Translations under genes and position numbers: made by a program
The notes under the pieces: model-generated
What the model was told of the DNA's origin: nothing
What the model saw: only the letters and a program-made list of their open reading frames with translations
Databases searched by the model: none
NCBI RefSeq assembly: GCF_900113935.1
Contig: NZ_FORF01000013.1
Coordinates: forward strand, 1 to 64,000
From: Aquamicrobium aerolatum DSM 21857
Lineage (GTDB): Bacteria > Pseudomonadota > Alphaproteobacteria > Rhizobiales > Rhizobiaceae
Reading direction: 5' to 3'
Length of the DNA stretch: 64,000 nt
In this document: positions 1 through 12,154 of the stretch, piece after piece
How positions within the stretch are numbered: the first letter of the stretch is position 1
Layout of the letters: each line of letters starts with the position of its first letter

Positions 1-95
1 AAACCGGAGGCATTTTGATGACCCCACGTTAAGGGGTCCCGTTTGGACGAAAATCACCCCTTAAACAGGGTCCTCATTCCATGAAAAATCACATT
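1..95. mobile_element. Possible IS21-like terminal repeats (IS end or remnant)
   Basis: Two imperfect direct repeats of about 24-25 bp lie at 34-57 and 68-92. Each starts GGGTCC, has a variable middle, and ends AAAATCAC or AAAAATCAC. Multiple short terminal direct repeats of this style are known from IS21-family ends. No transposase is visible, so the element would lie left of the window or be a solo remnant. The family assignment is a recollection-based guess. Confidence 0.3.
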
Positions 96-578
96 GTACG
101 ATGACGCTTTTGTGCGGCCCAATCGGGAAAGCTGGCTGGAGGCCGCGTGAAGGTGCCAACGATCATCCATCATATCTCGGATGAAATCCGTGCTTGCGTT
201 TTGAACAGCTTCCTACGGGTGATGTCACTTTGATTGGCCTTCGAGTGGCATTTTCTACTGCCGTTCGAACCCGGCGGGTGACAGCATCTCCTTCCTGATT
301 TGCTTGCGAGGTGTTTTACCCCTTCCCTCTTGCTGGCAGCGTAAGCGTTGATGGTTGCATGATCCCGCAGCCGGACGATCGCTTGACTGCGACTAATTTC
401 GGCCTCGCGCCAGCCTCTTTTGCTGCGCCGCCGCAACAGCATGACTTTTCGAGGGTAGCCAGCCATCCGAACACGTCCTCGATCTGGTCACCGCTGCAAT
501 CGAGCCGACGACGTCGTCGGAGGCTGCCAGCGAAGCCGATAAACTGCATGGAGACCAGACCGTGGGGCCAGGCAGCTA
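96..578. other. Non-coding or decayed stretch, no supportable gene
   Basis: Only short overlapping reading frames occur on both strands. They carry no recognisable domain, no good ribosome binding site and no conserved motif. The stretch lies between the IS-like repeats at the left edge and the 3' end of the DapA-like gene, and may be debris from an insertion. Confidence 0.4.
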
Positions 579-1520
579 TTACTTGTTGCGGGAGGCGTGA
601 AGGCGTTCACGCCAGTATTCGGTGCCTTCCTGGATGTGGTCGAGCAGAACGCCTGCGGCCCAGTGGGTCTCTTCCACATCGTATTGGATAACGCGGCTGC
701 CGGGTTCGGCGAAGGTGCCGAGGCGGTTGTGGTAGAATTTTGCCAGTTTGGGATAGCCCATCGGTTCGGCCATGGCGGCAAGCGCAAGGAACACTTTCAG
801 CTCTTCGATCTCGCCGCCATCCTCGGTGCGACGCGCGTAAAGTTCGGCGTAGAGGTCGGGGTGGAAATTGGTGAAGACGCCTGAAAAGCCCTTTGATCCC
901 GAACGCATCGCGTCGAAGGCGATGGCGGCATTGGCGTTGATGACGGCGAGCGGTGAATCTTCAGCCAAGGCGACGCGACGCTGAACGGTTTCAAGGTCGC
1001 AGGAGACATCCTTGAGAACAACAAAGCGCCCGCTGTCACGGCACAATTTGAACTCGTCGTCGCTGAGCAGGCGGCGGTAGGGCGCCGGGCATTCATAAAG
1101 ACCGAGCGGCATGTCCGAAGGCAGGGCCGCCAGCAACGCATCGAGATGGGCGCGGAAAGCATCCGTGCCCTTGTTGTCGGGATCGAGCCGGTTGGTGACC
1201 AGCACCAGCGCGTCGACACCGGTGTCGGCGACCGCCTTCAACTCGGCGATCTGCTCGTCCAGGTCGGTGCTGATATGCCCGGAGGAGATCACCGGCAGCT
1301 TGCTGCCTGCGAGCTCGACGACGCGCTTTGACAAAGCGACGCGCTCGTCCAGCGTCAGGCGCTGCATCTCGCTCGACTGGCACACTGCAAAGAGGGCATC
1401 GGAGCGATGCTCGATATACCAGTCGACAAGGTTTTCCAGACCTTCCCAATCGATCGCCCCGCCATTGTCCATGGGGGTCAACATGACCGGGACAATACCT
1501 TCAACCGCTCTGCGCATCAT
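579..1520 (-). CDS. Dihydrodipicolinate synthase / N-acetylneuraminate lyase family protein
   Basis: This is a class I aldolase-fold lyase or synthase of the DapA/NAL superfamily. These enzymes form a Schiff base between an active-site lysine and a 2-oxo acid, usually pyruvate. From the ATG at 1520 the protein has about 313 residues, normal for the family. The likely catalytic tyrosine is in LYECPAPYRR (about residue 142) and the Schiff-base lysine in VVLKDVS (about residue 170). A TTG at 1547 would add nine residues, but an AAAGG sits about 11 nt before the ATG pair at 1520/1517. It is divergent from the FG-GAP gene and shares its intergenic region and IclR-type operator, which suggests a step in the same catabolic route. 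The substrate is not deducible. The motif differs from the YNVPxRT of true DapA, so lysine biosynthesis is unlikely. Confidence 0.85.
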   Translation of the reverse strand: MMRRAVEGIVPVMLTPMDNGGAIDWEGLENLVDWYIEHRSDALFAVCQSSEMQRLTLDERVALSKRVVELAGSKLPVISSGHISTDLDEQIAELKAVADTGVDALVLVTNRLDPDNKGTDAFRAHLDALLAALPSDMPLGLYECPAPYRRLLSDDEFKLCRDSGRFVVLKDVSCDLETVQRRVALAEDSPLAVINANAAIAFDAMRSGSKGFSGVFTNFHPDLYAELYARRTEDGGEIEELKVFLALAAMAEPMGYPKLAKFYHNRLGTFAEPGSRVIQYDVEETHWAAGVLLDHIQEGTEYWRERLHASRNK

Positions 1521-1559
1521 TCCACCCGTTGCCTTTCGTCCGGCCAAAATTTATATACA

Positions 1560-1583
1560 ATTCCATTTCAGAATAGCATTCCA
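1560..1583. promoter_or_regulatory. Predicted IclR-family operator, copy 1
   Basis: Three half-sites of the ATTCCA/TGGAAT type lie in alternating orientation with 3-nt spacers; the middle one is degenerate (CAGAAT). The right part reads CAGAATAGCATTCCA (1569-1583). It matches 19 of 24 positions of the site upstream of the iclR gene (10481-10504). It lies in the divergent promoter region between the DapA-like gene and the FG-GAP gene, next to an AT-rich TATATA at 1552-1557 that could be a -10 element for the minus-strand gene. The TGGAAT-N3-ATTCCA type resembles the known E. coli IclR operator consensus. Confidence 0.65.
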
Positions 1584-1609
1584 AAATGATCATGAACAGG
1601 GAGGATGGC

Positions 1610-3580
1610 GTGTCAAAAGTTCTGCGGTGGGAAGACGACGCTCATGTGTGGTCCGGACCGGATTATGGCGACGACAACATTCGCTATCATCCTTCCGTCA
1701 AATCGGCGGCGGTGGCGGGCAGGATCATCACCTGCGTCGATGTGGTCGACTGGGATGGCGATGGCGGGCGCGATCTTTTGCTGTCGAGCTGGGATGCCTG
1801 CTATGACGGACGCGTGTTTCTGCGGCAGCAGATCGGCGTCAATGCGGATGGCACGCCGATTCTAGGCAAGGAGGAACTGATCGAAGGCGTGCGCGGCTAT
1901 GTGACCGCGGTGCCGGATGGCGATGTGTTCCATCTCGTCTCGGCCTCGCGCATGCGCAAGCAGATTTATCTCTACCCCAACATTGGCACCAGGGGCGCGC
2001 CTGAATTCGGTGCGCCGGTGGCGCTTGATCTCGACGCCGACTGGGTCAAGGGCAACGAGTTCTACCATATGGCGCGCTTCGTCGATATTGACGGCGACGG
2101 TGAAAAGGAACTCGTCGTCGGCAGCGACCATTGGGACGATTATTGGCCGAACGGCCTGGAGTGGAACGATTTCGGCTATCGCGGCTATGATGCGGCAGAT
2201 CGCTGGCTCGGCGGGCCGCTGCGCGCCTATCTCTATGTGTTCAAGAACAAGGGTAGCCTGGCCGCGCCGGTGCTGGAGAAGGGCTATGCGCTGAAGGCGG
2301 GCGACACGCCGCTGGAGGTCTATGGCCAGCTTGGCCCGGCGTTCGGCAAGTTCGATGACGGTGCGCCTTTGGTCGTGGCGGGCGAGTTCTGGAACATCCT
2401 GCATGTGGCGCGTCAGCGCGACGATGGCCATTTCGAACCGCTGCGTCTCATTCGCGACCGTGACGACAATGTGCTGGAACTGGACCAGTGCATCCATCTG
2501 CCCTGCGTGGTGGATTGGGATGGCGATGGCAAGCTCGACATTCTCGTCGGGGCGGAAGACGGTTATGTCACCTTCCTGCGCAATGTCGGCACCGGCAGCG
2601 ATGGCCTGCCAAGATTTGAGAAAGTCGGTCGCGTCGAAACGACCGAACCGCTGATCCATGCCGGTGTGCTGCCATCGCCCGCCGCGCATGATTTCACCGG
2701 TAATGGTCTGCCCGACCTTGTGGTTGGTAACAGCACGGGCGAATTGCTGTTTTATGAAAATATGGGGCCGGCCGGAAACCCGTCTCTCGGGCTGGAGCGA
2801 TTCATTGAAGCGGGCGGCAAGCCGGTTCGCATCGCGGCCGGACCGACCGGGTCGATCCAGGGACCGTCGGAAAAGATGTTTGGCTATTCCTGCCCGACGG
2901 TGGCCGACTGGGATGGCGACGGCAAGGCCGACATCCTGTTCAGCGACGTGCATGGTTATCATCGCTTCCTGCGCAATCTGGGCGGAGAGGGAACGCCGCG
3001 TTTTGCCGAAGAGCAATTGCTGACCTATGGCGGCAAGCCGCTGAAGACGGTGTGGCGCGTGCGCCCGGCCGTGGTCGATTGGCAGAACGATGGCCAGCTG
3101 CACTATCTCGCGCTGGACGAGGAGGCGCGGCTGTCGGATTATCGCCGGGCGTCCGACACCGAGCTGGTCGACAAGCGCTTCCTGCGCTGGGAAGATGGCG
3201 AGATCATCACCTTCACCGAAGATGTCGGCGGCGGGCGCGGCCGTGCCAAATTGTGCATCTGCGACTGGGAAGGTCAGGGCCGGCATGATTTGATCGTCGG
3301 TGTCAATGCGCGTGCCACCGTGCCGCCCAAGCCCGGCAATGCGCCACGCCACACCACCAAGCAGGCGGCGATCTTCTACTGCCGCAATGTCGGCACGCCC
3401 GATAATCCGGTGTTTGCAGCGCCGATCCAGATGAAGCATCGCGGCGAATATATCGCGATGGCGATGCATGTCGCTTCGCCCGAAGCGGTCGACTGGCGCG
3501 GCACCGGCAGCCTCGACCTCGTCGTTGGCGTCGAGGACGGCACGCTGGTCTGCCTCAAGCGGGAAGATCTGTCATGGTAG
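1610..3580 (+). CDS. Cytosolic FG-GAP/VCBS repeat beta-propeller protein
   Basis: About 656 residues built almost entirely of FG-GAP/VCBS-type repeats. I count about eight units, each with a calcium-loop-like Asp-rich core such as DWDGDG, DIDGDG or DFTGNG followed by a hydrophobic strand (DILVG, DLVVG). The last three cores are degenerate (DWQNDG, DWEGQG, DWRGTG). This is typical of a seven- or eight-bladed propeller. I see no signal peptide or membrane segment, which is unusual because such repeats are mostly extracellular. The start is set at GTG 1610 because AGGGAGG at 1598-1604 is ideally spaced for it; in-frame ATGs at 1586 and 1592 have no such site. The 3' end overlaps the next dehydrogenase by 7 nt, implying translational coupling. 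It may be a lyase, a binding scaffold or an enzyme of the pathway; the function is unknown. Confidence 0.8.
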   Translation: MSKVLRWEDDAHVWSGPDYGDDNIRYHPSVKSAAVAGRIITCVDVVDWDGDGGRDLLLSSWDACYDGRVFLRQQIGVNADGTPILGKEELIEGVRGYVTAVPDGDVFHLVSASRMRKQIYLYPNIGTRGAPEFGAPVALDLDADWVKGNEFYHMARFVDIDGDGEKELVVGSDHWDDYWPNGLEWNDFGYRGYDAADRWLGGPLRAYLYVFKNKGSLAAPVLEKGYALKAGDTPLEVYGQLGPAFGKFDDGAPLVVAGEFWNILHVARQRDDGHFEPLRLIRDRDDNVLELDQCIHLPCVVDWDGDGKLDILVGAEDGYVTFLRNVGTGSDGLPRFEKVGRVETTEPLIHAGVLPSPAAHDFTGNGLPDLVVGNSTGELLFYENMGPAGNPSLGLERFIEAGGKPVRIAAGPTGSIQGPSEKMFGYSCPTVADWDGDGKADILFSDVHGYHRFLRNLGGEGTPRFAEEQLLTYGGKPLKTVWRVRPAVVDWQNDGQLHYLALDEEARLSDYRRASDTELVDKRFLRWEDGEIITFTEDVGGGRGRAKLCICDWEGQGRHDLIVGVNARATVPPKPGNAPRHTTKQAAIFYCRNVGTPDNPVFAAPIQMKHRGEYIAMAMHVASPEAVDWRGTGSLDLVVGVEDGTLVCLKREDLSW

Positions 3581-4380
3581 GCGTGCGCGTCGATGGCACG
3601 ACACGGCTGATGGGGATCATCGGCGATCCGATCAGCCAGGCCAGGACACCGCAGGCGATCAACCCGATCTTTGCAGGCAAAGGCGCCGACATTGTCTGTG
3701 TGCCGCTGCATGTGCCGGCGGACGATCTTGCGACCGTGTGGGCGGGGCTGAAAGCCATGCCCAACCTGATCGGCTTTGGCGTGACCCTGCCGCACAAGCA
3801 GATCGTGCCGCAGCTCTGCGACAGTCTCGATCCGCTGGCCGCGCGGATCGGTGCGGTCAATGTCGTGCGACGCGAACCGGATGGCAGATTTCGCGGCTAT
3901 CAGTTTGACGGGCAGGGCTTCGTGCGCGGGCTGATCGCGCAAGGCGTGGTCCTGCAAGGGCGCGATGCGCTGATGATCGGCGCGGGCGGGGCGGCGGTGG
4001 CGATTGCGTTTGCGTTGCAGCAGGCGGGCATTGCCCGGCTGGTGGTGGCCAACCGCACCTTTGACAAGGCCGAAGCCCTGGCCCGTGCGGTCAATGAGGC
4101 GACCGGAACGTCTTTTGCGACTGCCGGTGCGCCGACGCCTGAGTCGGGTCAGCTGGTCGTCAACGCGACATCGCTGGGGCTGAACGACAGCGACCCACTG
4201 CCACTGGACGTGTCAATGCTGCAGGCGGGGATGACGGTGGCGGAAGTGATTGCAAAACCGGAGATCACGGCGCTGTTGCGCGCTGCCGAACAACGCGGCG
4301 CGGCGATTCATTCCGGCATTCACATGATTACCGGTCAGGTCAGCCTGATCGCCGATCACATGATCGCGGCGCTCGGTTAA
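3574..4380 (+). CDS. Shikimate dehydrogenase-like oxidoreductase (AroE fold), copy 1
   Basis: A 268-residue NAD(P)-dependent dehydrogenase of the AroE/YdiB fold. The N-terminal substrate domain keeps the catalytic lysine (VTLPHK, K75) and the aspartate (FDG, D112). The nucleotide-binding loop is GAGGA at 136-140. The usual shikimate-binding serine pair (HSxSP) is replaced by SQARTP around residues 21-26, so shikimate is probably not the substrate. The ATG overlaps the stop of the FG-GAP gene by 7 nt, so the two are co-translated. A paralogue is encoded convergently just downstream. Its place in the island points to oxidation of a hydroxy acid in a catabolic route rather than aromatic amino acid biosynthesis. 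Confidence 0.85.
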   Translation: MVGVRVDGTTRLMGIIGDPISQARTPQAINPIFAGKGADIVCVPLHVPADDLATVWAGLKAMPNLIGFGVTLPHKQIVPQLCDSLDPLAARIGAVNVVRREPDGRFRGYQFDGQGFVRGLIAQGVVLQGRDALMIGAGGAAVAIAFALQQAGIARLVVANRTFDKAEALARAVNEATGTSFATAGAPTPESGQLVVNATSLGLNDSDPLPLDVSMLQAGMTVAEVIAKPEITALLRAAEQRGAAIHSGIHMITGQVSLIADHMIAALG

Positions 4381-4389
4381 AGCAAAATT

Positions 4390-4412
4390 GCCGCTGGTTT
4401 CAGGCCAGCGGC
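4390..4412. terminator. Hairpin terminator between convergent AroE-like genes
   Basis: An 8-bp perfect stem (4390-4397 with 4405-4412, GCCGCTGG/CCAGCGGC) sits between the two convergent dehydrogenase genes. On the minus strand the stem is followed by CAATTTTG, a short T-run, so it probably ends the long minus-strand operon and may also serve the plus strand. Confidence 0.6.
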
Positions 4413-5227
4413 GTTCCTGCCGGACGTCCGGCGGCAAAGCCGGCGATCAGCGCGATTTGCGCCGACAGCATGTCGTTGCCATCCGATATTGCGCAGCCGG
4501 CTGCGCGGGCAGCGCGCAGCAAGGGTGTGTCGCCGGAAAGCGCTGCAATATCGGCAACCAGCATCGAGGACACGAGGCGTTCGGGCGCAAACGGGAAGGT
4601 CGCCGTGCCCTTGATGCCGATCGGCGAGGCGTTGAGGATCACGTCAAAATCGCTTTGTGACAGATCGGCTTCAACGGCCAGATCGCGCTGCGCAGCGGCA
4701 TTGACGATCTCGATGGTGGCGGCAACGGATGTTGGATCGAGATCGAGCAGCGCCAGTTGTGCCAGTCCTTCGGATGCCAGCGCATGAGCGATGGCGCGTC
4801 CGGCCCCGCCTGCGCCGACCATCAGCACCTTGGCACCCTTCAGGCGGCTCCGATTGTCGCCCAGTCCGGCGACGAAACCGTCGCCATCAAACAATGCGCC
4901 ATGCAGCCTGCCATTGGCTGCGCGCTGGATCGAGTTAACCGCGCCGACTGCTTGCGCCGTCGGTGTCAGCGTGTCGCATAATTGCGCAGCGGCGATCTTG
5001 TGCGGGACGGTGACGCCGATTCCAGCCGTGCTCGGCATCGCGGAAAACGTCGCCCAAGCCTGCGCGAAAAGGCTGGCGGGGACATGGAACGGGACCGCGA
5101 CGATGTTTTCGCCGGCATTGGCAAAGAGCGGATTGATCAGACGCGGGGTCTGGACCTGCGCCACCGGGTCGCCGAAGACCGCATAGGTCCGGGTGCTACC
5201 ATTCAGGTTCGGGATCGTGTCGGTCAT
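4400..5227 (-). CDS. Shikimate dehydrogenase-like oxidoreductase (AroE fold), copy 2
   Basis: A 275-residue AroE-fold dehydrogenase, last gene of the minus-strand operon. The start is the ATG at 5227, which overlaps the TGA of the upstream TIM-barrel gene (ATGA). Catalytic lysine (VTVPHK, K77) and aspartate (FDG, D114) are present and the nucleotide loop is GAGGAG at 138-143. As in the convergent paralogue, the HSxSP serine motif of true shikimate dehydrogenases is replaced, here by QVQTP at 24-28. The shared Q-x-x-TP-x-x-IN-P-x-F block suggests both belong to one subfamily with a non-shikimate substrate. Two paralogues may act on two stereoisomers or on successive intermediates. Confidence 0.85.
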   Translation of the reverse strand: MTDTIPNLNGSTRTYAVFGDPVAQVQTPRLINPLFANAGENIVAVPFHVPASLFAQAWATFSAMPSTAGIGVTVPHKIAAAQLCDTLTPTAQAVGAVNSIQRAANGRLHGALFDGDGFVAGLGDNRSRLKGAKVLMVGAGGAGRAIAHALASEGLAQLALLDLDPTSVAATIEIVNAAAQRDLAVEADLSQSDFDVILNASPIGIKGTATFPFAPERLVSSMLVADIAALSGDTPLLRAARAAGCAISDGNDMLSAQIALIAGFAAGRPAGTPLA

Positions 5228-6039
5228 GGGGTCACCAGATCTGGAAATATCTGCGTGCAACGCTGGACGACCGTGTCGAGCACAAAGGCCGGGTCGCGCG
5301 CGGCCCAGTCGTCGGAGAAGATTTCGACCTCGACCGGCCCGTTGAAGCCGGTGGCGCGGACCAGCCCGTCGATATAGGGCAGGTCGATGATGCCATCGCC
5401 CATCATGCCACGGTCGCGCAGCAGATGGCGTGTCGGCACCAGCCAGTCATTGACGTGGAAGCCAAGGATGCGCCCGGCTTTCCCGGCGCGCGCGACTTCT
5501 TCTTCCAGCCGCTCGTCCCACCAGACATGGTGGACGTCGATGACGATGCCGATGCCATCGCCCAGCGCATCGCAGATCGCATTGGCGTGCGACAGGCTGG
5601 CCAGGGTCGTACGGTCGCCGACCAGCATCGGGTGCAGCGGTTCCAGCGCCAGCTTCACGCCGATCTGCCGCGCCTGATCGAGCAGGCCGCCGATGATGTC
5701 CTCGTGCCGGCGTCGCGCGGCCTTCAGGTCATGTTCGCCGTCAACCAGACCGCCGGTGAACACCAGCACATGATCGGCACCGAAGCGCGCGGCCTGCTCC
5801 AGCTGGGCGGGCGCCTTGTCGAGTTCTGTGGCAATGAACGGACCGATGCGATTATAGCCGTACACCGTCATGCCGGCCTGCTGCAGAGCTGCCTGCGCGG
5901 CGGCTTCGCCGACCTTGTCGATCTCGTCGCCCCAGATCGAGACAGCGCGCAGATTGCGCGCGGCGCACAAATCGATGAAGGCCAGCATGTCTGCCTTCTC
6001 ACGCACGGTGGCGTGGTTGATCGCGATGTCGCGGGTCAT
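5224..6039 (-). CDS. Xylose isomerase-like TIM barrel protein (AP endonuclease 2 family)
   Basis: A 271-residue TIM barrel of the sugar phosphate isomerase/epimerase (AP_endonuc_2) family. The probable metal ligands are visible: E133 in LALEPLHP, D168/H170 in VIDVHHVWW, H195 and D198 in GFHVNDWL, and E239 in EVEIFSDD. The family includes ketose epimerases, hydroxypyruvate isomerase and bacterial 3-dehydroshikimate dehydratases; which reaction applies cannot be decided here. It begins 8 nt after the transporter ATPase and overlaps the downstream AroE-like dehydrogenase by 4 nt. An isomerase or dehydratase acting beside two dehydrogenases and an aldolase-type lyase would make a coherent catabolic route. 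Confidence 0.82.
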   Translation of the reverse strand: MTRDIAINHATVREKADMLAFIDLCAARNLRAVSIWGDEIDKVGEAAAQAALQQAGMTVYGYNRIGPFIATELDKAPAQLEQAARFGADHVLVFTGGLVDGEHDLKAARRRHEDIIGGLLDQARQIGVKLALEPLHPMLVGDRTTLASLSHANAICDALGDGIGIVIDVHHVWWDERLEEEVARAGKAGRILGFHVNDWLVPTRHLLRDRGMMGDGIIDLPYIDGLVRATGFNGPVEVEIFSDDWAARDPAFVLDTVVQRCTQIFPDLVTP

Positions 6040-6047
6040 AAAGGTCC

Positions 6048-6875
6048 CTAGAATTTGTAGACGCCGAGCTTCGCGAAAATCTTGTAGATGCGCTCGGCAT
6101 AGGCCGAAAACTCGGGATATTCGCCAAGATGGGCCGGGCGGGGACGCGGCAGGTCGATCTTGATTTCCTCGACGATCCGGCCAGGATTGTTCGACATCAC
6201 CAGCACGCGGTCGGACAGGCCGACGGCCTCTTCAATGGAGTGGGTGATGAACAGAACCGTCTTGCGGGTTTCCAGCCAGAGCATTTCGAGGTCGTGCCGT
6301 ATCTGGGTGCGGGTGATGGCGTCGAGCGCGCCGAACGGCTCGTCCATCAACAGCATCGACGGGTCATGAACCAGCGCGCGGGCGATGGAGACACGCTGGC
6401 GCATGCCGCCCGACAACTGGCGTGGATAGCGGTCCTTGGCATGGCTCAGGCCCAGCCGGTCGAACAGCATGTCGGCACGGGCACGGGTCTGCGCCTTGTC
6501 GAGACCGCGAATTTCCTGCTGCAGCATGACATTGTTCATGGCGGTGCGGAAGTCGAGCAGCAGATGGTCCTGAAACACGATGCCGACTTCGGAAAGCGGC
6601 TTGGTCAGCGCCTTGCCGTCGACCTTGATGGTGCCGGTGGTGCAGGGCTCGAGGCCGGAGGCCATCAGCAATGTCGTGCTCTTGCCGCAGCCCGACGGGC
6701 CGATCAGGCTGACAAATTCGCCGGGCTTGATGTCGAGGTCGATCGGACCGAGGGCATGGAAAGCCGCATCGCCGGAGCCGTAGACCTTGGTCATGTTGGT
6801 GGCGACGATCGAGGCCCCCGCATGGGAGGTCTGGCCGCTCGACAAGGCGCTGTTGGGGGATGCGTTTTCAGTCAT
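6048..6875 (-). CDS. NitT/TauT-type ABC transporter ATP-binding protein
   Basis: A 275-residue nucleotide-binding subunit like TauB or SsuB. Walker A is GPSGCGKST (59-67), the Q-loop FQD is near 101-103, the signature LSGGMRQR is at 154-161 and Walker B LLMDEP is around 175-180, followed by the D-loop and a switch histidine (ITHS). It energises import of the island's substrate from the cytoplasmic side. It lies between permease 2 and the TIM-barrel gene. It is the only ATPase for two permeases, so one ATPase dimer probably serves either a heterodimeric channel or two alternative channels. Confidence 0.92.
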   Translation of the reverse strand: MTENASPNSALSSGQTSHAGASIVATNMTKVYGSGDAAFHALGPIDLDIKPGEFVSLIGPSGCGKSTTLLMASGLEPCTTGTIKVDGKALTKPLSEVGIVFQDHLLLDFRTAMNNVMLQQEIRGLDKAQTRARADMLFDRLGLSHAKDRYPRQLSGGMRQRVSIARALVHDPSMLLMDEPFGALDAITRTQIRHDLEMLWLETRKTVLFITHSIEEAVGLSDRVLVMSNNPGRIVEEIKIDLPRPRPAHLGEYPEFSAYAERIYKIFAKLGVYKF

Positions 6876-6911
6876 GGTCTGTCCTGAAACTTCGAAAAAC
6901 GGGTTATGGAA

Positions 6912-7754
6912 TCAGTAGGCGGTATTTGCCCACGGCATCAGGATCCTGCCGGCAATGCTCATCAGGCTGTTGAACGCTAGCGCAACGATGGCCGCAGCGA
7001 TCAGCCCGGCGAACATCAGCGAGACATCCATGTAAGCGGAGGCTTGCAGGATCATGAAGCCGATGCCGGCATTGGAGGCGATGAACTCTGCGACGATGAC
7101 GCCTTCGACGGCTTTGACGACACCGATGCGCATGCCGGAGAAAATATGCGGCATCGCGGCGGGCAGACGGAACTTGAAGAAGCCCTGCAAGGACGACGCG
7201 CCCATGGTGCGCGAGATGTAGAACAGGCGCGGATCGATCGACTTGAAGCCTGAAATGGCGTCCACCAGGATCGGAAAGAAGCACATCAGGAACACGATCA
7301 GCGCCGCAACCAGCGGACTGATGCCGAACCAGACGATCAGGATCGGCCCGATTACGGTTTTCGGCATGATGTTGAGGAACACGATGACGGGGTAAAGCCC
7401 TCGCTCCAACGCCGGGACCGAGGCAATAGCGAGCGCGAGCGGAACCGCGATCAAAACGCCCAAGCCGAACCCTTTCAGGATCGTCACCGACGTTGCAAGG
7501 GCGTGGTGACCGATCATCTGCCAGTCGGTGACGAGGCGGTTGAGAAAATCGGACGGGCGCGGGAACAGCCAGCGCGGCACGTCATAGGCCCATGCCAGAA
7601 GCTCCCACAATCCCAGCAGTGCGGCGACCGAGAGAACAGCGATAATGGCCGATCCGACAAAGGACTGTCGCAACCTGTCGACGCTGTGCCACAGGCTGCG
7701 TTGGGGAGAGGCGGCGACCACCTTCGTGAGGGCGTGATCAGGCATGACCAGCAT
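6912..7754 (-). CDS. NitT/TauT-type ABC transporter permease (copy 2)
   Basis: A 280-residue inner-membrane permease of the BPD_transp_1 family with about six transmembrane helices and the cytoplasmic EAA-like loop near SRTMGASSLQGFFKFRLPAA. An AGGA about 5 nt upstream supports the ATG at 7754; an ATG at 7745 is an alternative. It is separated from the binding-protein gene by 67 nt holding a strong hairpin. It is clearly related to, but distinct from, the permease encoded upstream of the binding protein. Confidence 0.9.
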   Translation of the reverse strand: MLVMPDHALTKVVAASPQRSLWHSVDRLRQSFVGSAIIAVLSVAALLGLWELLAWAYDVPRWLFPRPSDFLNRLVTDWQMIGHHALATSVTILKGFGLGVLIAVPLALAIASVPALERGLYPVIVFLNIMPKTVIGPILIVWFGISPLVAALIVFLMCFFPILVDAISGFKSIDPRLFYISRTMGASSLQGFFKFRLPAAMPHIFSGMRIGVVKAVEGVIVAEFIASNAGIGFMILQASAYMDVSLMFAGLIAAAIVALAFNSLMSIAGRILMPWANTAY

Positions 7755-7779
7755 GGATCCTGTGTTCTGTTCCGAAATG

Positions 7780-7806
7780 GCTCGCGGGAAATAAGTTCCC
7801 GCGAGC
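7780..7806. promoter_or_regulatory. Intercistronic hairpin after the binding-protein gene
   Basis: A perfect 11-bp stem (7780-7790 with 7796-7806) and a 5-nt loop lie 16 nt past the stop of the binding-protein gene, inside the operon. There is no T-run after it on the minus strand. Such hairpins often protect the 3' end of the upstream message or attenuate downstream transcription, giving more binding protein than permease. Confidence 0.7.
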
Positions 7807-7821
7807 GCTTGTGGCGCTGCC

Positions 7822-8826
7822 TTACTGGCAGGTGACCGGCGTCTGCGGGACGTAGTCGTTGGTGTAGTAGTCGGTCACCGGACGGTCGGCTGGGACACCC
7901 ATGGCGGTGGTCATGACGTCGTACATCTTGTCCCATGTCGCGGCGTCGGTGACGCCGATGCTGTCGCCAGCACCGCCGGGGCAGACCGAGTTGAAGCTGT
8001 AGACCGCGCCCTGCATCAGCGCATCATGCGTCAGTTGCGTCTCCGGGAACATTTCCTTCAGCGTATCGACGGCCGTCTTCGGGTCCTTCATCGCTTCCTG
8101 CCAGCCTTGTGCGGTCGCCTCGATGAAGCGACGGAACATGTCCGGGTTTTCCTTCAGCTTGTCGTCGAGCGCGACAAGGCTGAGGCTGGCGAGCGGCACG
8201 CCATGATCGTAGAAATACATGTTGCTGGCCTTGTAGCCTTCGGCGGCCAGCGGCACGACAACGTTCTCCGGCGTCCGCGCCACCGCGTCGACCTGACCGG
8301 AAGTCAACAGACCGATGAAGGCCGTGTCGGAAGCGTTGATGATCTCGACATCGGATTCGCTGATGCCGTTGGCCTTGAGAAAGACGGGGATCAGCGGCAC
8401 AGCGGCTGCGCCTGGATTGACGGCAAGACGCTTGCCGACGAGATCCTTGGGCTCATTGATGTTTGCTGTCTCAAGCGACTGAACACCGAACTGGCCTGAC
8501 TTCCAGATCGTCGAGATGATGCGGATCGGGGCGCCCTGCGCCGCGATATTGATAGCGGCAACCGTGTCGGCAAAGCCAAGCTCGACCTGCCCGCTTGCGA
8601 CCAGCTGCGCGGCGACGGCCGAGCCGCGGCCCTCGATCAGCGTCACGTCGAGATTGTGCTTGTCATAGATGCCGAGCTTTTCAGCCATGACGAAGCCGAG
8701 ATGCGCGGAATCAGCGGTCCAGTTCATCTGCATCGAAATCTTGTCCTGCGCATAGGCGCTGCCAAATGGCAGGGCGGACACGACTGCGAGCATCGCAAGC
8801 GTCTTTTTCGATAGAATTTTTGACAT
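7822..8826 (-). CDS. ABC transporter substrate-binding protein (NMT1/THI5-like)
   Basis: A 334-residue periplasmic solute-binding protein of the NMT1/SsuA/TauA type. A Sec signal peptide is clear (hydrophobic core at about 8-22, cleavage after SAYA near residue 26). It starts at the ATG at 8826 behind a strong AGGAGG. The mature protein has the family features GRGSAVAAQLVASGQVELGFAD and the hinge regions. It captures the substrate and delivers it to the two permeases encoded on either side. Family members bind taurine, alkanesulfonates, nitrate, pyrimidine precursors or aromatic acids, so specificity cannot be read off. Paired cysteines near the C-terminus (Cys in NSVCPGG and the last Cys) may form a disulfide. 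Confidence 0.92.
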   Translation of the reverse strand: MSKILSKKTLAMLAVVSALPFGSAYAQDKISMQMNWTADSAHLGFVMAEKLGIYDKHNLDVTLIEGRGSAVAAQLVASGQVELGFADTVAAINIAAQGAPIRIISTIWKSGQFGVQSLETANINEPKDLVGKRLAVNPGAAAVPLIPVFLKANGISESDVEIINASDTAFIGLLTSGQVDAVARTPENVVVPLAAEGYKASNMYFYDHGVPLASLSLVALDDKLKENPDMFRRFIEATAQGWQEAMKDPKTAVDTLKEMFPETQLTHDALMQGAVYSFNSVCPGGAGDSIGVTDAATWDKMYDVMTTAMGVPADRPVTDYYTNDYVPQTPVTCQ

Positions 8827-8864
8827 TTAATATCCTCCTAGAAAGCAGATTTTGGTGCCCGGCA

Positions 8865-9626
8865 TCAAACGCTCCGCCAGGGCAGGAGCAACCTTTCAAC
8901 CAATGTGACCAGACCGCTCAGCACCACTCCGATCATCGAGGCGACCATGAGGATGGCGAAAAGCAGCGGCGTGTTGGAACTGTCCATGGCGCGCAGCACG
9001 AGATAGCCAAGCCCGCTCTGGGAATTGAGCCATTCGACGACGATCACCACTGTGACGGCCACAACGGCGGTGATCCTGAAGCCCGAAAAGATGTAGGGTG
9101 CAGCCGAGGGCAGCTCGAATTTGGTGAACGTCTGCCACCACGACGCGCCCATCGAGCGGCTGAGATAATATTGCCGCTTGTCGATCGCGCGAAACCCTGT
9201 GGCGCTGTCGACCAGCACCGGGAAAAACGTGATCAGCGCGGTCAACAGGATTTTTGGGAAATCGGCAAAGCCGAACCAGACCAGCAGCAGCGGCGCCAGC
9301 GTGATCTTGGGCATGCCCTGAATGAACACGACGATCGGATAGAGAATCTGGTCGGCGAGACGGAAACGGGCGATGAGATAGGCGAGGATGATGCCGGGGA
9401 TGGCCCCGGCGACAAAGCCGTAGAGAATGAGCTTGGTCGTAATCAGGCCGTGACGGGCGAGCCGTTCGTGGTCGATGACGAGTTGCGAGAGGAACGCGCT
9501 CGGGGCGGGCAGGATGAAGCTGGGCACCTCGAACCAGCGGACGAGGAATTCCCAGATCAGAAGCAATCCGGCAAACCAGATGATCGGTTCGGCAATCTGG
9601 CGGGCGGATGAAAGGGGGCTCTTCAA
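8865..9626 (-). CDS. NitT/TauT-type ABC transporter permease (copy 1)
   Basis: A 253-residue inner-membrane permease of the BPD_transp_1 family with about six helices and an EAA-like loop around SRSMGASWWQTFTKFELP. The start appears to be TTG at 9626, whose G-A overlaps the TGA stop of the iclR gene (TTGA, 4-nt overlap), so it is translationally coupled to the regulator. The binding-protein gene follows after 38 nt. Having two non-identical permease genes with a single ATPase is uncommon in this transporter class, where the permease is normally a homodimer. Confidence 0.88.
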   Translation of the reverse strand: MKSPLSSARQIAEPIIWFAGLLLIWEFLVRWFEVPSFILPAPSAFLSQLVIDHERLARHGLITTKLILYGFVAGAIPGIILAYLIARFRLADQILYPIVVFIQGMPKITLAPLLLVWFGFADFPKILLTALITFFPVLVDSATGFRAIDKRQYYLSRSMGASWWQTFTKFELPSAAPYIFSGFRITAVVAVTVVIVVEWLNSQSGLGYLVLRAMDSSNTPLLFAILMVASMIGVVLSGLVTLVERLLLPWRSV

Positions 9627-10444
9627 GGCGTAGGCCTTTCATTGACGCTGACCACGTTTGCACGCTGCCGCGACCGTACGGCCCAGATGGCGGCGATATC
9701 CTGCGCCGCCTTGTGCAAGGCAGCGACGAGCGTGTCGTAGCGGTCGGGGGCAATCCGGATGGCGGGGCCGGCGACGCTGATTGTGCCGGCGACGGGCGCA
9801 TCGACAAGCGGGCTGGCGAAAAACGGAACGGCAAGCGCTGCCGTGCCCTGTTCGGCTTCTTCCAGTGAAAGCCCATAGCCGCGCTCGCGCGCGACCCGTA
9901 GGCGGTCCCGCAATTCGTCGATGGTTTGCGCGCTGTTCGGCCCCAGCGGTCGGTTGGCCTGAAAGCCACGGGCAAACACGATGCGCACCGCTTCATCTTC
10001 CGGCAGGGTCGACAGCCAGGCTTTGCCGTTCGCGGTAGCGTGGAGGATGATTTCCTGCCCCATATCCGGGTCGTAGCGCAGGCCCGAGGTTGCCCCCTGG
10101 GCACGCGCGACCCAGACGAGGTCTTCGCCCTCGACGATGGCAAGGCGGCAATATTCGCGCGTCTCGCGCGCCAGATTGTCGAGCACCGCCTGCACGATAT
10201 CGGGCACCGCACGCGCATCGAGATTGCGAAATGCCAGCGTGCTCATGCGCAGCGACAGCGAATATTTCTGGCTGAGCGGATCCTGAACGACCCAGCCATG
10301 GTTCAACAGCGTGACGATCAGCCGGTGAACGGCACTGGCCGGCATATCGAGACGGACAGCAAGTTCTGTCACCTCGACGGGTTCACGCTCGTTGGCAAGG
10401 ACTTCGAGCAGGGCCAAGCATCGGCTTACGGCGGCAACGGTCAA
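9623..10444 (-). CDS. IclR family transcriptional regulator
   Basis: A 273-residue IclR-type regulator with an N-terminal winged helix-turn-helix (about residues 5-65, VTELAVRLDMPASAVHRLI being the recognition region) and a C-terminal GAF-like effector domain (about 80-255). The start is a TTG at 10444 with an excellent GGAGGAA seven nt upstream. It is the first gene of the transporter/dehydrogenase operon, and a triple half-site operator lies about 40 nt upstream, so autoregulation is likely. A near copy of the operator lies in the divergent promoter at the other end of the island, so it probably governs all ten genes. The inducer is presumably the imported compound or an intermediate. Confidence 0.93.
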   Translation of the reverse strand: MTVAAVSRCLALLEVLANEREPVEVTELAVRLDMPASAVHRLIVTLLNHGWVVQDPLSQKYSLSLRMSTLAFRNLDARAVPDIVQAVLDNLARETREYCRLAIVEGEDLVWVARAQGATSGLRYDPDMGQEIILHATANGKAWLSTLPEDEAVRIVFARGFQANRPLGPNSAQTIDELRDRLRVARERGYGLSLEEAEQGTAALAVPFFASPLVDAPVAGTISVAGPAIRIAPDRYDTLVAALHKAAQDIAAIWAVRSRQRANVVSVNERPTP

Positions 10445-10480
10445 GACAGGTTCCTCCTGGAGAGAATTCTAGATCAACTG

Positions 10481-10504
10481 ATTCCAAAATGGAATAGCAT
10501 TCCA
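10481..10504. promoter_or_regulatory. Predicted IclR-family operator, copy 2
   Basis: Three perfect half-sites (ATTCCA, TGGAAT, ATTCCA) alternate with 3-nt spacers. The right pair forms the perfect palindrome TGGAATAGCATTCCA (10490-10504). The site lies about 40 nt upstream of the iclR start and matches the copy at 1560-1583 at 19 of 24 positions. It is the likely autoregulatory and operon-control site. Confidence 0.72.
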
Positions 10505-10832
10505 GTTTTATGTTTTGTTGAGTGGCAATCGGAAAGATGTCCTATCATGACGACAGCTTTTTGGATCGGCTCTGGTGGTGCACGATGGTTGGTCGAAAAT
10601 CTGCGCCAGGCTGCAGTGACGATTCAATCATTTGAGCCAAAGCATGGTACGATTTTGATGAAGTCGAGGAATGTGGCGGCCAGCGATTCCAGATCGCCGG
10701 CTATTGCCTCAAGCGGCTGGTCGAACACCGTCATCTCGATCCAGCGGTAGAGGCGCCGTTGGCCGTCTGATAGGGGGCGAACCGTTCTGTGCGGAAGTCG
10801 CGCCGTCCTGAAACCTGAATTTGTTGCTGCAG
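10505..10832. other. Intergenic stretch with a possible gene remnant on the minus strand
   Basis: No intact gene is supported. On the minus strand an open frame runs to a stop at 10624 and reads LYRWIEMTVFDQPLEA followed by a plausible helix. The neighbouring frame just upstream reads FAPYQTANGA, as though one reading frame had been broken by a frameshift. The only ATG, at 10734, would give 36 residues. I do not recognise the parent protein. Confidence 0.25.
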
Positions 10833-11324: not shown

Positions 11325-11711
11325 TCATTTGCGCCTGGCGGGCTTTGGCAGGTTGAGCGCGATGGCGGCGCGGATGAGCGCGGTGAATGCGGCGGCGTCG
11401 ACGGTCTCGCCTTCGCGCAGGTCGATGGCGCGGCGGGTGTTGCCGTCAAGACTGGCGTTGAACAGGCCGGCCGGATCGGCGAGCGCTGCGCCCTTGGCGA
11501 AAGTCAGCTTGACCACCGCCTTGTAGACTTCGCCGGTGCAGATGATGCCGCTTTGCGACCACACCGGCACGCCGCGCCATTTGATTTCCTCGACGATGTC
11601 GGGATCGGCTTGCAGGATGATGCTGCGCATGGCGGCCAGCGTCTGGCCGCGCCAGTCGGAGAGCGCCTCGATCTTGGCGTCGATCTGTGCGGCAGCGGTC
11701 GGGTTTGTCAT
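11325..11711 (-). CDS. DUF1801 domain protein (first of tandem pair)
   Basis: A 128-residue soluble protein of the DUF1801 (YdhG-like) family. The conserved core is visible: an early helix with LRGQTL-like residues, then EEIKWRGVPVWSQSG and a TFAKGAAL strand. The biochemical role of the family is not established. It follows another DUF1801 gene by 11 nt in the same direction, so they are probably one transcript. The two are too different to be a recent duplication. Confidence 0.85.
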   Translation of the reverse strand: MTNPTAAAQIDAKIEALSDWRGQTLAAMRSIILQADPDIVEEIKWRGVPVWSQSGIICTGEVYKAVVKLTFAKGAALADPAGLFNASLDGNTRRAIDLREGETVDAAAFTALIRAAIALNLPKPARRK

Positions 11712-11722
11712 CGGCCTGCTTC

Positions 11723-12154
11723 CTACATCTTTTCGCCGGGTAGCTGGCTTGCCTGTTCCACCCAGTCGGCAAACTGGGCTTCGTCAAAAGGCGCGTCTTC
11801 GTAAATGTCGAGATAGCGCACATGTTGTTGTTTCGACTTGCCCGGCGGCAGTGGCGTCAGCGCCGCACCGCGGAAGAACGCCACCTTCACGTATTTCGTC
11901 ATGCAGTGAAAGCTGAGGAACCAGAGGTCATTCCTGGTGCCATAGAACGGTGAGTTCCATTTCACCGCCTTGGCAACGTCTGGAACAGTGCGCGTGACGA
12001 TGGCGTCGAGGTGCGCGCCGAGATCGCGCTTCCAGCCCGGCATGGCGGCGATATAGGCCTGCACGGGTGCGTCGCCAAAGCCTTTGGCGATCTGTGGATT
12101 GCCGCCGGACAACAGCACGACGGTATCCGGGTTTGGTGGCTTGTCCTGCGCCAT
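11723..12154 (-). CDS. DUF1801 domain protein (second of tandem pair)
   Basis: A 143-residue DUF1801 family protein. The characteristic block KAVKWNSPFYGTRNDLWFLSF aligns with the EEIKWRGVPVW block of its downstream neighbour. The start is the ATG at 12154 behind GGAAG. It is the first gene of a small minus-strand group (DUF1801, DUF1801, DUF423) that is divergent from dnaK. No enzymatic motif is recognised. Confidence 0.85.
   Translation of the reverse strand: MAQDKPPNPDTVVLLSGGNPQIAKGFGDAPVQAYIAAMPGWKRDLGAHLDAIVTRTVPDVAKAVKWNSPFYGTRNDLWFLSFHCMTKYVKVAFFRGAALTPLPPGKSKQQHVRYLDIYEDAPFDEAQFADWVEQASQLPGEKM

Follow-up and report, generated by a model that had tools for sequence, protein, structure and literature searches.

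The first 64,000 nucleotides of contig NZ_FORF01000013.1 of Aquamicrobium aerolatum DSM 21857 (hereafter, the window; it forms the start of a 124.5-kb contig) raise the question of what a ten-gene island at its left end does for the cell. The island encodes an FG-GAP/VCBS beta-propeller protein, two AroE-like dehydrogenases, a DapA-like lyase, a TIM-barrel protein, an ABC importer, and an IclR-family regulator. We tentatively interpret it, at a little under an even chance, as a horizontally transferred set of genes for importing and degrading a polyhydroxylated, ring-shaped compound without a shikimate-type carboxylate. Catabolic operons of this general kind are known; the composition is new. 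An earlier sequence-only reading of the window knew of no characterised pathway of this kind; none surfaced in the open-licence PMC literature, including queries that combined the families, and no description of the island was found there. The genes and putative operators of the island are as follows (window coordinates).

579..1523, minus strand, DapA-like lyase/aldolase of the DHDPS superfamily (PF00701, 79.9 bits)
1561..1583, plus strand, putative IclR-type operator in the divergent DapA/FG-GAP gap (genome-wide scan, conservation in relatives)
1610..3580, plus strand, FG-GAP/VCBS beta-propeller protein of about 656 amino acids, probably cytosolic (PF13517, 86 bits)
3574..4380, plus strand, AroE-like dehydrogenase 1 (AroE1), overlapping the 3' end of the FG-GAP gene (PF08501, 70 bits; PF01488)
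4400..5227, minus strand, AroE-like dehydrogenase 2 (AroE2) (PF08501, 66.1 bits)
5224..6039, minus strand, xylose-isomerase-like (AP_endonuc_2) TIM barrel (PF01261, 96.6 bits)
6048..6875, minus strand, ABC importer ATPase of the SaoA/taurine type (PF00005, 113.5 bits)
6912..7754, minus strand, ABC importer permease (PF00528)
7822..8826, minus strand, NMT1/SsuA-type periplasmic binding protein (PF09084, 156 bits)
8865..9626, minus strand, ABC importer permease (PF00528)
9623..10444, minus strand, IclR-family regulator with a TTG start after AGGAGG (PF09339 and PF01614)
10482..10504, plus strand, putative IclR-type operator upstream of the IclR gene (exact 14-mer GGAATAGCATTCCA)

Open reading frame and domain scans of the window sequence bore out the gene order and orientation first read from it: ten intact frames at 579-10444, with the DapA-like gene on the minus strand, FG-GAP and AroE1 on the plus strand, and the rest on the minus strand. 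The DapA-like and FG-GAP genes diverge from a common intergenic gap, and the genes from IclR to AroE2 form a row with short gaps or overlaps. Judging from the alignment, translation of the FG-GAP protein probably starts at GTG 1610 behind the ribosome-binding site AGGGAGGA, not at ATG 1586, because the conserved alignment of its relatives begins there; the operator at 1561-1583 therefore falls outside the gene.

Do these genes belong together? The FG-GAP, two AroE-like, and DapA-like genes had been expected to co-occur in other genomes, and strong co-occurrence was found in each of the three sets searched, namely 297 genomes of a single family, 72,556 plasmids, and 25 loci. The searches within the family all drew on the same 297 genomes and are thus not independent samples. 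In this family sample, FG-GAP is present in 14 genomes, one copy being partial (G262). The TIM barrel occurs at 54% identity or more in exactly these 14 genomes, matches elsewhere reaching at most 47%, and DapA is found at 62% or more in all of them. AroE1 (at least 57%) and AroE2 (at least 52%) are each present in 13 genomes, all with FG-GAP; matches to AroE1 at 42-47% exist in five genomes without it. On plasmids, FG-GAP was detected in 21 records, 16 of them predicted to be conjugative, and all plasmids with AroE2 (19) or the TIM barrel (20), both at E<=1e-60, are among these 21.

A scan of the genomes of 84,980 species gave 88 FG-GAP relatives, of which 80 were kept. The 25 close relatives (66-98% identity; L015, from Pseudaminobacter salicylatoxidans DSM 6986, to L039) come, by title, nearly all from rhizobia and their kin, and include the genus Albibacillus, which belongs to Rhodobacterales. 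One record, L037, carries the label of a Spirochaetales metagenome-assembled genome, which may be a binning error. The fetched stretches around the close relatives contain AroE1 in all 25 cases, IclR (at least 50% identity) in 22, the TIM barrel in 20, DapA in 18, AroE2 in 17 (two partial), and the binding protein of the window type in 13. In L018 and L032 (genomes G169 and G092) DapA lies farther away, outside the fetched stretch. The island proteins co-evolve. For eight of them, pairwise distances gave correlations of 0.77-0.95 over the full set of 28 pairs (13-26 loci per pair), a level reached in none of 500 shuffles for each pair; shared phylogeny accounts for part of these correlations.

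Another 55 FG-GAP relatives are distant (25-36% identity) and belong to planctomycetes, verrucomicrobia, and others. A gene from the DapA-family cluster is present in six of these 55 loci: directly before FG-GAP in L050 and L065, and overlapping the long FG-GAP frame in L072. Such adjacency is suggestive only, because DapA is common. Of the four distant loci that were typed (L050, L051, L065, and L072), three have a DapA gene immediately preceding FG-GAP, one has an FGGY kinase and a sulfatase near FG-GAP, and in one a sulfatase is encoded in the FG-GAP frame itself. Distant relatives of AroE1 in L116 (47%) and L117 (44%) lie in a different cluster common to both, with genes resembling, as named by eye, SDR and GMC oxidoreductases, thiamine-diphosphate enzymes, and a branched-chain ABC importer.

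The island moves horizontally. Its DNA is 91% identical over 604-10558 to that of G179, a genome from another genus, while dnaK is 86% identical; the query covered positions 1-10560, and no match extended past this interval. The higher identity of the island than of dnaK across genera identifies it as a horizontally moved unit. No FG-GAP match at E<=1e-20 was found in the four sampled genomes of the window's own genus (dnaK 86-88%). The left edge of the island adjoins one further feature.

1..95, no strand assigned, IS-like repeat at the contig end

This repeat has 13 further genomic copies (12 at 100% and one at 93% identity), seven of which lie no more than 550 bases from the start of a contig. 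Perhaps it is a mobile element at the island's flank that interrupted the assembly. The presence of FG-GAP on 11 Agrobacterium plasmids had suggested opine catabolism on Ti plasmids; this idea was rejected, all three of the 11 records that were examined being named pAt.

What holds the island under common control? The operator at 1561-1583 reads TTCCATTTCAGAATAGCATTCCA and that at 10482-10504 reads TTCCAAAATGGAATAGCATTCCA. They share 18 of 23 bases and the pattern TTCCA-N5-GAATAGCATTCCA. With at most one mismatch, the 14-mer is found at these two places only in the whole 3.64-Mb genome; with at most two, it has 15 genomic sites in total, compared with 5 for the reversed control. Thus, the match between the two putative operators described earlier exceeds chance. 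In the close relatives, sites with at most two mismatches precede FG-GAP/DapA in 15 of 25 loci and IclR in 16. At least one of the two positions is occupied in 19 loci, both in 12, and neither in six (L024, L029, L030, L031, L032, and L037, the last starting at a contig edge). Shuffled loci gave 0.09 hits per locus, single-base shuffles being the only type used.

The regulator contains the HTH_IclR and IclR_C domains and has an operator-like site at its own promoter. In L029 and L030 the IclR protein is merely 51-52% identical and no operator is present, which fits the window-type IclR as the reader of the site. A simple rule linking the two is disfavoured by L031, with an IclR of 63-72% identity in two pieces and no operator, and by L016, with an IclR of 72%, a site before FG-GAP, and none before IclR.

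Which substrates would the dehydrogenases accept? In shikimate dehydrogenases, a Lys and an Asp are catalytic, and the serines of the SxS motif hold the substrate carboxylate. Both catalytic residues, the Lys of PHK and the Asp of FDG, are invariant in 28 AroE1 and 19 AroE2 sequences. At the position of HSxSP, AroE1 has Q(A/V/I)x(T/S)P (QARTP in the window) and AroE2 has QVQTP, and none of these sequences retains the SxS serines. HSxSP itself is present in the six shikimate dehydrogenase chains compared (2egg, 2gpt, 6bmb, 1nvt, 2hk9, and 2hk7), 4k28 excepted. The latter, a member of the shikimate dehydrogenase family which we take to be from Pseudomonas putida, is the best solved match of both AroE-like proteins and resembles them in having Q-V-x-S-P (QVKSP) in place of HSxSP. 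Both proteins also stay below the NCBIfam cut-offs, with top scores of 166 bits against 252 and 153.4 bits against 200.2.

These residues bear on quinate or shikimate catabolism, in which the AroE-like proteins would be paralogous shikimate dehydrogenases, the barrel would resemble 3-dehydroshikimate dehydratase, and the regulator would be PcaR-like. The families agree with it: AroE, an AP_endonuc_2 barrel, and an IclR regulator whose best NCBIfam match is PcaR/PcaU/PobR (121.1 bits against a cut-off of 284.75). The loss of the carboxylate-binding serines from both AroE-like proteins and their sub-threshold scores argue against it, and neither the DapA-like nor the FG-GAP protein has a known role there. 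Moreover, the plasmid of Rhizobium NXC14 has a separate set just upstream of the island (L124:4016-12338) that comprises an additional gene annotated as shikimate dehydrogenase and one with a sugar isomerase/4-hydroxyphenylpyruvate domain; a branched-chain ABC importer and SMP-30 are annotated in the same stretch. We consider this explanation highly improbable, and the quinate-like acids listed among the candidate substrates by the sequence-only reading are accordingly disfavoured.

The pairing of two AroE-like genes has been masked in databases. In four plasmid records, relatives of AroE2 are annotated as "ThiF family adenylyltransferase" (L121:22853-23680, L122:36100-36927, L123:16845-17675, and L125:18853-19680). 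By its domain scores this label is a naming error, because the ThiF match of the window protein (27.2 bits) lies under the Pfam cut-off of 28.1 and its Shikimate_dh_N match is strong.

The TIM barrel has candidate metal ligands Glu, Asp, His, and Glu, assigned by motif and invariant in 23 sequences: the Glu of EPLHP, the Asp of VxD, the His of FHV, and the third-residue Glu of EVE. These candidates match the E/H-D-H-E metal-site pattern of the CGE/OGE eliminases. However, a His follows the first ligand at three residues, not at two as in His132/His134 of AtOGE in the excerpted text of PMC10628242. In the DapA-like protein, 22 sequences share an invariant Tyr (YECP) and an invariant Lys (LKDVS). 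A Tyr and a Schiff-base Lys are the key residues of DHDPS-type enzymes. The GTTGE-type motif typical of DapA is replaced by an invariant CQSSEM in the same sequences, and the NCBIfam dapA equivalog is not reached (80 bits against a cut-off of 206).

The propeller protein poses the most difficult question, namely whether it is an enzyme. No signal peptide is visible in it, judged by eye alone, and the protein should thus be cytosolic. In an alignment of 42 sequences, the most distant at 31% identity, residues Q425, E429, W490, R491, K555, and H628 are invariant; they lie outside the repeats, and the residues of the DxDGDG loops are conserved as well. No match to solved structures was obtained at E<=0.01 with the protein, and its profile gave weak partial matches only (best E 0.025). 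A phage origin was considered and rejected, no PHROGs match being found.

Aldos-2-ulose dehydratases (AUDHs) are fungal enzymes with cupin domains that dehydrate keto-sugars. They belong to the VCBS superfamily according to the excerpts of PMC8023676, and are propeller enzymes, as proposed here for the FG-GAP protein. The PF13517 repeats expected of an AUDH-like VCBS dehydratase are present in the latter. The place of AUDHs in the superfamily supports both the reading that we prefer and an Entner-Doudoroff-like route. In this route, a dehydrogenase would form a keto-sugar, which the FG-GAP protein would dehydrate in the manner of AUDH; the TIM barrel would isomerise the product, and the DapA-like enzyme would cleave a 2-keto-3-deoxy acid, the second AroE-like enzyme handling the released aldehyde or an epimer. 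SMP-30, PfkB, and Gfo/Idh genes in relatives point the same way, as do DapA loci in genomes without FG-GAP (eight fetched, L107-L114, out of 14 such genomes): L109 has YhcH/YjgK/YiaL and MFS genes, L108 has PfkB, and others have, by eye, TRAP-like genes. However, the window's island has neither a lactonase nor an aldonate dehydratase, and a Pfam scan detected no AUDH-like cupin domain in the FG-GAP protein. We regard this route as rather unlikely.

A non-enzymatic role has also been considered, with the FG-GAP protein as a cytosolic carbohydrate-binding protein or a scaffold for the other enzymes. In the excerpts of PMC8023676, VCBS-type propellers include lectins (PVL) and a toxin component B, and the VCBS core group is accompanied by interaction domains; in one distant relative, the FG-GAP frame also encodes a sulfatase. 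On the other hand, the FG-GAP gene overlaps AroE1 and is paired with it in 25 of 25 relatives, and the invariant Q, E, R, K, and H lie beyond the DxDGDG loops. We find this explanation unlikely.

What does the importer reveal about the substrate? The NMT1/SsuA-type set is complete, with an NMT1 binding protein, two BPD permeases, and an ATPase (Pfam and NCBIfam scans). The ATPase has its best NCBIfam matches to SaoA and the taurine ATPase and the permeases are closest to SaoP/taurine models, all below the cut-offs. This importer is retained in 13 of 25 close relatives. The clusters that were typed in L020 as a carbohydrate-type ABC importer also have members in L017, L018, and L032, and the ATPase of this importer is present in L036; L021 and L035 share a family of TRAP-type binding proteins typed in L035 as DctP. 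In each of the five plasmid records examined (L121-L125), genes annotated as belonging to a carbohydrate ABC importer are found close to the island, and L121 and L125 have an additional row resembling the window's importer. Further genes in relatives encode ribokinase-like PfkB, LysE-like, Gfo/Idh dehydrogenase, SMP-30, aldo/keto reductase, and FAA-hydrolase-like proteins. Together with the carbohydrate importers, the added genes constitute a sugar setting, which supports the substrate class proposed below. The island had been called self-contained; it is indeed a conserved co-inherited unit, but the word claims too much: the importer is exchanged between relatives, and the constant core consists of the enzymes plus, mostly, the regulator.

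In one Rhizobium relative, two cytochrome P450, 2Fe-2S ferredoxin, and ferredoxin-reductase-like genes, named by Pfam, adjoin an extension of the island (L120:12072-16368). A P450-ferredoxin set for O-demethylation was rejected as a part of the pathway: L120 is the one relative in which it was looked at, and all operator hits there, in two places, have two mismatches.

The similarity of the importer to the SaoA/SaoP and taurine models agrees with catabolism of a sulfated sugar, its sulfate ester being taken up by the SsuA-like importer. A sulfatase typed in L035 (2808-4241) and its cluster mate in L021 (3557-5113) are each encoded a few genes away from the island. Relatives of this sulfatase at 76-77% identity are present in G019, G121, and G055 besides G186, the genome of the sulfatase query, that is, in 4 of 13 island genomes. 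A sulfatase also lies near FG-GAP in L065, and in L072 the two share a single open frame. The window's own genome has no relative of the L035-type sulfatase at E<=1e-40, so a sulfated substrate is only a weak rival, and we consider it very improbable.

The sequences show the gene content and its conservation, co-occurrence and co-evolution, the operator footprint, horizontal transfer, and the conserved residues. For the reading that we prefer, catabolism of a ring-shaped polyhydroxylated compound, we infer all reactions, the propeller's part as an enzyme, the substrate class, and the direction of regulation. The substrate may be a keto-sugar, an anhydro-sugar, a glycoside, or a cyclitol. In response to a ligand, IclR on its two operators would control DapA, FG-GAP-AroE1, and the long IclR-to-AroE2 operon, and the ABC importer would take the compound into the cell. 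One AroE-like enzyme would oxidise a ring hydroxyl to a ketone, and the metal-dependent TIM barrel and the propeller, the latter as a lyase or hydratase, would perform elimination and hydration (or isomerisation) beside it. The second AroE-like enzyme would reduce the product, and the DapA-like enzyme would split a 2-keto-3-deoxy intermediate, with pyruvate and an aldehyde as products. Overall, this would be a redox-neutral ring opening.

A similar oxidise-eliminate-hydrate-reduce logic, served by different protein families, is provided by levoglucosan catabolism, in which elimination and hydration of a 3-keto-sugar are catalysed by proteins whose annotation is sugar phosphate isomerase (excerpts of PMC7676230). 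The island's two putative ring-ketone dehydrogenases, metal barrel, aldolase, and propeller with invariant acidic, basic, and aromatic residues would suit this logic. In Bacillus smithii, the LgdA-LgdB1-LgdB2-LgdC set places two dehydrogenase steps around elimination and hydration, as would be the case here, with a sugar ABC importer adjoining. The island differs from what those excerpts describe in its AroE-like dehydrogenases, single barrel, extra DapA-like lyase and FG-GAP protein, and IclR regulator. Manganese TIM barrels act as 3-keto-glycoside eliminases: CGE and AtOGE share with the island's protein the barrel and a metal site of E or H, D, H, and E, while the latter has E-P-L-H for their E/H-x-H pair, and a common sequence family is not established (excerpts of PMC10628242). 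An AroE-family enzyme acting on a keto-sugar is exemplified by 5-ketofructose reductase (PDB 7cok), a lone enzyme with no such island in the excerpts of PMC7954740.

Several observations weigh against this reading. The barrel mostly has E-P-L-H, not the E/H-x-H of the eliminases, and thus may be an isomerase. An importer of the NMT1 type is atypical for sugars, and the window's island lacks genes for a Gfo/Idh protein, a lactonase, or a kinase. AUDH was not found among matches of the FG-GAP profile to solved structures at E up to 10 (its presence in the library was unchecked), and the conserved residues of the propeller could belong to a binding protein as well. The FG-GAP frame is broken in L034, and DapA, AroE2, the TIM barrel, or IclR is absent from the fetched stretch of some close relatives. 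Finally, DapA is not exclusive to the pathway, because relatives at 53-68% identity also occur in 14 other genomes of the family sample, which lack an FG-GAP match.

The island joins families for which no joint role was found in print: an intracellular FG-GAP propeller, AroE paralogs that would not hold shikimate in the customary manner, and a DapA-like lyase. It is possible, if short of an even chance, that the FG-GAP protein is the first member of a new class of carbohydrate lyases or hydratases, intracellular and built on a VCBS propeller, which together with two AroE-type ring-ketone dehydrogenases of a sugar or cyclitol would serve an undescribed catabolic pathway spreading, also via conjugative plasmids, among plant-associated rhizobia and agrobacteria. 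If true, this would assign a function to a VCBS propeller subfamily that reaches planctomycetes and verrucomicrobia. Because the genes co-occur in a nested fashion, strains that carry them allow immediate tests of the pathway, and the naming of AroE2 as a ThiF family adenylyltransferase can be corrected.

Between the convergent AroE1 and AroE2 genes lies a further feature.

4390..4412, no strand assigned, hairpin and possible terminator (8-pair stem with a T-rich tail, consensus match only)

Sites of this type are not enriched in the window (6 found, compared with 8.0 expected from shuffles). To the right of the island, at 11325-12154, there are two DUF1801 genes in tandem.

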